This document shows positions 2,447 through 4,265 of a DNA stretch of 49,157 bases, piece after piece. The notes beneath the pieces were generated by a model. It had not been told where the DNA came from and did no database searches. It worked only from the letters and a program-made list of their open reading frames with translations. The first letter of the stretch is position 1. Every line of letters begins with the position of its first letter. This stretch comes from Tissierellia bacterium (lineage in GTDB: Bacteria; Bacillota; Clostridia; Tissierellales; Peptoniphilaceae), in NCBI GenBank assembly GCA_030528125.1, contig JAUMZM010000004.1:11163-60319 (forward strand), written 5' to 3'. The translations under genes and the position numbers were made by a program.

Positions 2447-2497
2447 AATTGCTCCTTATTTTACAATATTTATTATATACTATTTATATAAACTTAT

Positions 2498-2534
2498 AAA
2501 ATAAAAATAAGCTTATGTCAAAAGACATCAGCCT
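2498..2534 (-). terminator. Terminator after the GlgB-like gene
   Basis: On the minus strand the arms at 2534-2524 and 2519-2509 pair over about 10 of 11 positions around a TTTT loop, followed by a T-rich run (ATTTTTATTTT). The stop codon of the GlgB-like gene lies inside the first arm. Confidence 0.75.
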
Positions 2535-4216
2535 ATTTCTTTAAATATTGCAGAAGAAAACTGAGAAATTTTAATTTTCTCGCCTTTATTTATTTTTCCG
2601 TTTATATTTCCAAAACCGCCATATTCTATCGAATCAGAATTTATAATTTCCTCTAAGTTCATGTCTATATCAATATTATAATTTATATCTGTTAAATTTA
2701 ATACTATAAGATAAGTTTTATCTTTTATGATCTTTTTAAAGATATAAACGCTATATCCTTCACTATCCATAAGTTTAATTTTTGATTTTAGATTTTTAGA
2801 AGTCATTTCAATATAAATTTTTGATAAGTCCTTGTAAAATTTATTGAATTCTTTATTATTTTTATTTTCTAATGCACTATTATCAAAGCTTTCAAATGGA
2901 GAGAATGTTTTAAAACTAGATATCTCATTTCCTAAAAACATAATCTTTGATCCATTTATCATATATAAAAGTGTAAGATAAGTCTTTAATTGTCGAAATT
3001 TTTTATCAAAATCTCCCCACATTTTCATAGGAAGTGAACATTCTTCGATTTCATTTAATATATAGTCAAATCCTTGTATTGTAAAATCTTTGCTATTATT
3101 TATAAACTCTTCTAACGTATTTCTTTGTTCATCTCTTAGAAATGGGTTTTCTTGAAAAATTTTTGTTATTGCTCTTGTATCTTTTAAATTTATAAAATCA
3201 AATCCAATATCATAGATTACATTATCATTATAATTAAAGTCTGTAATACTTATTGCATTTTTTGAAGATATAATATTTATTAATTCTTTTATTAAATCAA
3301 ACCATTTTTGATTTATTCCTCTATTTATATCTCCTTGCCAATATATTATGTTTTCAATTGCGTTAAATCTTATTCCATCAACTCTAAATTCTTCAAGGTA
3401 AAAATTTATAATTGATTTTACAAAACTTTTTGTGCTATTTTTCGATATATCTAAATTCACAGCTCCATAATAATTGTATTTTATGTCATCATAAGGATAA
3501 TTATATAAATTATCTCCATCAAAATTTATTAGTCCTCTATAATGATCATCGAATTCAGAAAGATTTAAATCAATTATTACTCCAATTTTGTTCTTATGGC
3601 AATTGTCTATAAAATATTTAAAGTCATCACTTGTTCCATATCTACTAGAAATGGCAAAAAACGATATAGCCTTATATCCTAATGATTTATAATCAATGTA
3701 TTCATTAATTGGCAATAATTGTATATGAGTATAATTATTTTGTTTTACATAGCTTATAAAATTATTAGAAACATCTCTTATACTCTTGTAATTACCGTTT
3801 TTATCTTTACAAATATTTCCAAGATATACCTGTAAAATATTCATATTATTGTTTTTTTTTATTTTTGTTTTTGATTTAAATTTATATGAATCATCGTATA
3901 CGACAGAGCTTAATTCATAATCAATATTTAAAAGTCTAGAATAAGGATCTAGCTTTTTAAACTCACCATCGTTAGTCTTTACAATATACAAATAATTATC
4001 ATTAGGCTTTGCTTTTTTATTTGACAAAGAAAACAGAGAACTACTATAAGATCTCATCTTTTCTTTTTGCCAGTCATTAAAATCTCCTACTAAATATACT
4101 TCACTAGCGTTTGGAGCAAATACTCTAAATATATAGTCATTATTGCTCTTCTTATGGCAACCTAAGAACTCATATGCCTGTATTTCTTTTCCACTTAAAT
4201 AAACTTTAGTACTCAT
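2528..4216 (-). CDS. GlgB-like GH13 protein, catalytic residues replaced (probable pseudoenzyme)
   Basis: The 562 residues align along their length with 1,4-alpha-glucan branching enzyme. The GlgB N-terminal motif YEFLG is at 16-20, a CBM48-like domain (RVFAPNASEVYLVGDFNDW) at 31-49, then a GH13 barrel from about 125 to 440 and a beta-rich C-terminal domain. The active site is altered at every key point. The nucleophile of region II is Asn285 (RFN for RVD), the region III acid/base is Asp326 (ITDF for AEES), and the region IV Asp is Asn388 (LNE for HDE). The His of region I is Glu221. The frame is intact, the SD is AGAGGTG, and the fold core is conserved, which argues for a selected non-catalytic role such as glycan binding or regulation (inference). 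It is the last gene of a cadC-cadA-like unit, 49 nt after the ATPase. No other glycogen gene lies in the window. Confidence 0.8.
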   Translation of the reverse strand: MSTKVYLSGKEIQAYEFLGCHKKSNNDYIFRVFAPNASEVYLVGDFNDWQKEKMRSYSSSLFSLSNKKAKPNDNYLYIVKTNDGEFKKLDPYSRLLNIDYELSSVVYDDSYKFKSKTKIKKNNNMNILQVYLGNICKDKNGNYKSIRDVSNNFISYVKQNNYTHIQLLPINEYIDYKSLGYKAISFFAISSRYGTSDDFKYFIDNCHKNKIGVIIDLNLSEFDDHYRGLINFDGDNLYNYPYDDIKYNYYGAVNLDISKNSTKSFVKSIINFYLEEFRVDGIRFNAIENIIYWQGDINRGINQKWFDLIKELINIISSKNAISITDFNYNDNVIYDIGFDFINLKDTRAITKIFQENPFLRDEQRNTLEEFINNSKDFTIQGFDYILNEIEECSLPMKMWGDFDKKFRQLKTYLTLLYMINGSKIMFLGNEISSFKTFSPFESFDNSALENKNNKEFNKFYKDLSKIYIEMTSKNLKSKIKLMDSEGYSVYIFKKIIKDKTYLIVLNLTDINYNIDIDMNLEEIINSDSIEYGGFGNINGKINKGEKIKISQFSSAIFKEIG

Positions 4217-4265
4217 AATATCACCTCTATGTTATATAAATCATAACATTTTTTAGATATTATAA

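Follow-up and report, generated by a model that had tools for sequence, protein, structure and literature searches.

One minus-strand gene in the DNA that we analysed (the window, a stretch of 49,157 nucleotides from a Tissierellia bacterium of the family Peptoniphilaceae) encodes a paralogue of the glycogen branching enzyme GlgB that has lost the catalytic residues of its family and is retained by purifying selection. The catalytic loss is old and extends over the whole clade to which this protein, here called pseudo-GlgB, belongs. Our analysis suggests that pseudo-GlgB is probably an accessory or regulatory glucan-associated protein, binding glycogen or a glycogen enzyme. The gene comprises 562 codons without interruption, and its features within the window are as follows:

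2528..4216, minus strand: pseudo-GlgB coding sequence, non-catalytic GlgB paralogue of 562 aa (open reading frame, NCBIfam and profile matches, alignment).
3938..4165, minus strand: CBM48, residues 18-93 (Pfam PF02922, E 1.2e-12); constraint about that in intact GlgB in matched species.
2807..3847, minus strand: GH13 TIM-barrel region, residues about 124-470 (AlphaFold model), diverging at 2-3 times the rate of the intact GlgB barrel.
2531..2806, minus strand: C-terminal beta domain, residues 471-562 (AlphaFold model, domain comparison).
3554..3556, minus strand: Glu221, in place of the region I His (E. coli H340; alignment).
3362..3364, minus strand: Asn285, in place of the region II nucleophile Asp (E. 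coli D405; alignment).
3239..3241, minus strand: Asp326, in place of the region III acid/base Glu (E. coli E458; alignment).
3059..3064, minus strand: Tyr385-Ile386, in place of the region IV His-Asp (E. coli H525-D526; alignment).
4221..4228, minus strand: Shine-Dalgarno sequence AGAGGTGA, 4 nt 5' of the pseudo-GlgB ATG (sequence).
2496..2535, minus strand: terminator-like hairpin with U-tract over the pseudo-GlgB stop codon (-12 kcal/mol, z -4.0), not among the terminators from the consensus scan.

The order of CBM48, TIM barrel and C-domain corresponds to the full GlgB architecture. The NCBIfam GlgB profile matches pseudo-GlgB from end to end (E 1.8e-84, residues 3-552) with a score of 284.3 bits, far under the curated cut-off of 577 that the other GlgB of the same genome (at C63) exceeds with 624 bits. 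Pfam detects the CBM48 and a weak alpha-amylase barrel match, and a branching enzyme in the PDB matches with an E-value of 3e-47. The AlphaFold model shows a confident GlgB fold (pLDDT 88, pTM 0.90) and aligns with a branching enzyme structure at a Z of 45.9 over 553 residues. No signal peptide is apparent in the sequence.

Alignment with E. coli K-12 GlgB places N285 at D405, D326 at E458, E221 at H340, Y385 at H525 and I386 at D526; retained are the region I Asp (D335, here D216) and R403 (here R283). The change from Glu to Asp at position 326 is conservative in the window protein, and most orthologues carry Ser or Gly there. None of the 31 aligned clade proteins (30 intact Anaerococcus orthologues and the window protein) keeps the nucleophile Asp, the acid/base Glu or the region IV His-Asp: position 285 is occupied by P, S, T, A, V, I, N or E and never by D, position 326 by S, G, F, N or D and never by E, and positions 385-386 are never H-D. 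The other GlgB-type branching enzymes aligned have D, E and D at the catalytic columns without exception. GlgB also keeps a Trp at column 179 and a Lys-Trp pair at columns 342-343, and pseudo-GlgB has lost these too. The joint loss of nucleophile, acid/base and stabiliser is incompatible with the known GH13 mechanism. Column 76 in the CBM48, always Lys in GlgB, has lost this residue in nearly all pseudo-GlgB members as well, and glucan binding by the CBM48 is thus not assured. Chance and misalignment as sources of the missing catalytic residues were excluded by the constancy of the catalytic columns in the other branching enzymes and their loss throughout the clade, and by the unchanged passage of E. 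coli GlgB and of the intact GlgB from these genomes through the same columns; a wrong frame or an assembly error in the window was excluded since the frame is open and the residues are absent in 30 independent orthologues too.

Most of what the initial annotation had read from the letters of this gene is confirmed by these comparisons, namely GlgB fold markers from end to end, an uninterrupted gene with a good Shine-Dalgarno sequence, and Asn285, Asp326 and Glu221 at the region II nucleophile, the region III acid/base and the region I His. Its assignment of the region IV Asp to Asn388 was off by two columns, the residue at E. coli D526 being Ile386, and its statement that all catalytic carboxylates are replaced applies to the three catalytic ones, with D216 remaining as a conserved active-site carboxylate.

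Among 130 genomes searched from the family, orthologues were present in all 31 genomes of the neighbouring genus Anaerococcus (31/31; genus g25, whose members include A. degeneri and A. lactolyticus, G068 and G073), in addition to the window genome. They share 39-49% identity with the window protein, and 30 of the 31 are open, the remaining one being frameshifted. A clade profile run against 249 genomes of the order gave 712-870 bits for complete members and 373 or less for the next sequences, which are intact GlgB; no pseudo-GlgB was found in these genomes outside Anaerococcus and the window genome. The sole broken orthologue lies on contig C23 of genome G069 (L116 / L148), is split into frames of about 154 and 405 codons and reaches 550 bits over the larger piece. 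A GlgP copy of G069 is fragmented as well (contig C22), so the break may be an error of the draft assembly. No pseudo-GlgB copy was found in G001, a second species of the window's genus whose genome is 81% complete. At this locus in G001 (L184:9717-11473), an ldh-like gene comes directly after thiD, and arsR, the P-type ATPase gene and pseudo-GlgB are absent between them, so that G001 and the window differ by insertion or loss of this block.

In a maximum-likelihood tree with SH-aLRT as the only support measure, the pseudo-GlgB clade is monophyletic (SH-aLRT 100), and its sister group is the intact GlgB from these genomes (SH-aLRT 98). Its stem measures 1.42 changes per site, and its inner branches are longer than those of intact GlgB. 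The dN/dS values of pseudo-GlgB, calculated according to Nei-Gojobori with Jukes-Cantor correction, are 0.056-0.26 compared to 0.035-0.11 for intact GlgB; as many pairs are synonymously saturated, these values are quoted for species pairs with dS below about 1.2, and they exclude the window gene (genome G000), which is without a close orthologue. The constraint is unevenly distributed over the protein. For matched species, the ratio of pseudo-GlgB to intact GlgB divergence is 1.02-1.10 in the N-terminal/CBM48 part, 1.23 in the C-domain and 2.05 in the barrel; these ratios derive from p-distances and are affected by saturation, and the corresponding values for close pairs are 1.38, 1.69 and 3.05. 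The barrel is more divergent than that of intact GlgB in 435 of 435 species pairs, drawn from the 30 genomes with both proteins, and of the 138 barrel columns that never vary in intact GlgB, 13 hold the same residue in every pseudo-GlgB. Constraint is relaxed far more in the catalytic barrel than in the CBM48.

The conserved non-catalytic role proposed in the initial annotation is supported by these data, and the glycan-binding or regulatory function that it put forward is probable. The two checks it suggested gave the expected outcome, the substitutions being shared by the orthologues and dN/dS lying well below 1 in close species pairs, and neither orthologues with intact residues nor relaxed selection on the gene, which it had named as signs of a decaying enzyme, were seen. 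As to the latter, the barrel nonetheless evolves under clearly weaker constraint than that of intact GlgB, and the G069 copy is broken.

Two same-strand genes lie upstream of pseudo-GlgB in the window, encoding an ArsR-type regulator and a cation P-type ATPase; the ATPase gene is 49 bases away. Positions 1-2450 of the window are occupied by a minus-strand gene for a repeat-bearing protein whose repeat recurs about every 330 bases (e.g. at 1 and 331), beside which there is an apparent decayed second copy with no long open reading frame. In Anaerococcus, the steady neighbours are dnaX, recR and the gene for a CbpB-like CBS protein. The gene for this c-di-AMP-binding type of protein (L129:7173-7802) is convergent to pseudo-GlgB in 20 of 20 neighbourhoods. 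An operonic partner was rejected, as none of the 20 Anaerococcus neighbourhoods contains a conserved co-directional glg gene adjoining pseudo-GlgB. All 32 genomes (31 Anaerococcus and the window genome) also carry glgA and a GlgB of intact length (~600 aa), whose catalytic set was checked and found complete in 30 of them. The distance from pseudo-GlgB to glgA in the 31 Anaerococcus genomes is within about 16 kb in 13, about 50 kb in 5 and about 210 kb in 8, and the two genes are on different contigs in 5; proximity to glgA may reflect inherited gene order and not function. The window genome also encodes a third, divergent branching-enzyme homologue (L109:3021-5009, contig C1; 662 aa from ATG) that keeps the whole catalytic set where aligned and has relatives in Anaerococcus genomes.

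These neighbourhoods bear on a role outside glycogen, in which the fold would have been kept for a structural or cell-envelope-associated binding protein or for a factor linked to c-di-AMP. The constancy of the CbpB-like gene in Anaerococcus fits this idea, as does a secreted-looking glucosaminidase-domain protein adjoining pseudo-GlgB in 16 of the 20 neighbourhoods. We nevertheless consider such a role rather unlikely, because pseudo-GlgB has no apparent signal peptide, the CbpB-like gene is convergent and not co-transcribed with it, and neither of these neighbours is adjacent in the window.

Still less likely is that new residues have created another enzymatic activity at the old pocket, for example through the acidic cluster E/D216, D218, E221 and D223 common to most members. 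E or D is present at position 216 in 31/31 proteins, D218 (Val in GlgB) in 28/31 and D223 (mostly Ala in GlgB) in 27/31; moreover, a GH13 amylase with an aberrant triad lacking one residue is active (PMC5347038). However, no new acid apart from position 216 is universal, the window protein having N218 and D223 giving way to Y, A or S in part of the clade, and the former catalytic columns 283, 285 and 386 hold 7-11 residue types, unlike a pocket under catalytic constraint. The active aberrant amylase, in turn, lost one residue only and kept nucleophile and acid/base. A search for clade-specific invariant acids that could form a new catalytic site yielded no convincing universal set.

That pseudo-GlgB is an enzyme decaying under relaxed selection after duplication and heading for loss, as its long stem branch, the 2-3 times weaker constraint on its barrel and the broken or missing copies in G069 and G001 might suggest, is very improbable, given a gene that is open in 30 of 31 Anaerococcus genomes and the window, dN/dS values of 0.06-0.26 that are not near 1 and largely refute decay genus-wide, 42 invariant columns in the clade, and a confidently predicted fold.

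We thus favour a selected, non-catalytic glycogen accessory protein. As alignment, tree and structural model show, glgB was duplicated before the split of the window's genus and Anaerococcus, with one copy staying an intact branching enzyme. From the other copy, the nucleophile, acid/base and transition-state residues of GH13 disappeared, and the CBM48, a folded barrel and the C-domain were kept. Through CBM48 and C-domain, pseudo-GlgB may bind glycogen or pair with intact GlgB or another glycogen enzyme, and might thereby tune branching, chain length or particle structure, comparable to ISA2 with ISA1 or GlgD with GlgC. The lack of a conserved glg operon, the loss of the column-76 lysine, the missing copy in G001 and the broken one in G069 speak against this reading.

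Compared to known systems, pseudo-GlgB is closest to GlgB (GH13_9) itself, with which it shares domain order, fold (Z 45.9) and end-to-end homology as a sister clade; it differs from it by the absent nucleophile, acid/base and region IV His-Asp and by its fast-evolving barrel. The nearest parallel is ISA2 of plants and green algae, in which at least four of the five catalytic residues are changed in every protein, the evolutionary rate is elevated and a complex with ISA1 is formed (PMC12510319). Pseudo-GlgB resembles ISA2 (PMC12510319) as a lineage-wide GH13 paralogue with most catalytic positions changed, including the nucleophile, and an elevated rate; as in ISA2-type proteins, the nucleophile is gone from all members (0/31 keep it) and the gene is retained under selection. 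Unlike ISA2 (GH13_11), it stems from another subfamily and kingdom and has no extra N-terminal beta-sandwich. As its best matches are GlgB/branching enzymes and not GH13_11 proteins, it is an analogue of ISA2 and not a member of that group. GlgD, the inactive subunit of the Firmicute ADP-glucose pyrophosphorylase that forms a heterotetramer with GlgC (PMC5268466, PMC9093745), is likewise a non-catalytic paralogue beside a catalytic partner in the same pathway and genome (glgC-glgD in L169). Its fold and its step are unrelated, however, and the heterotetramer with GlgC belongs to GlgD and is not known for pseudo-GlgB. The alpha-amylases of the BmaN1 type also have an altered GH13 triad, but there only the third Asp is changed, to His, nucleophile and acid/base are kept and the enzymes are active (PMC5347038), whereas all three residues are gone in pseudo-GlgB. 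No description of a non-catalytic partner of a bacterial glycogen branching enzyme was found in the open-access literature searched.

A second degenerate paralogue is found in the glg operon of the window genome (L169), which has the order glgC-glgD-glgA-phosphorylase-pullulanase-like-pgm. According to PMC4282360, the order in L. acidophilus is glgBCDAP-amy-pgm, and the L169 operon corresponds to that order minus glgB. The operonic phosphorylase (753 aa; L169:6504-8765, minus strand, contig C39 of G000) directly follows glgA and has lost its PLP lysine: the motif NMK reads NMS or NFS in the window genome, in G011 and in the aligned Anaerococcus genomes. Across other genera of the family, this operonic phosphorylase is degenerate to a variable extent. 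An intact phosphorylase of ~800 aa (GlgP) is encoded elsewhere in the window genome. The operonic phosphorylases form a separate old clade, in a tree with long-branch warnings, and their dN/dS is near 0.06 in close pairs. Two enzymes of the pathway, GlgB and GlgP, thus have a selected, apparently dead paralogue, beside the inactive subunit GlgD. It is conceivable, if somewhat doubtful, that this lineage pairs catalytic with non-catalytic proteins at several glycogen steps, namely GlgC/GlgD (known), GlgB/dead GlgB and GlgP/dead operonic phosphorylase.

For the pseudo-GlgB clade, an annotation as branching enzyme based on homology would be incorrect. Non-catalytic GH13 partners are already established in starch metabolism by ISA2. 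If catalytic and non-catalytic proteins are indeed paired at several glycogen steps, this would be a bacterial counterpart of plant ISA1/ISA2, and pseudoenzyme partners would constitute a general control layer on glycogen. A pseudo-GlgB selected throughout a genus, together with an intact GlgB in the same genome, offers a simple two-gene system for testing a non-catalytic control of glycogen structure.
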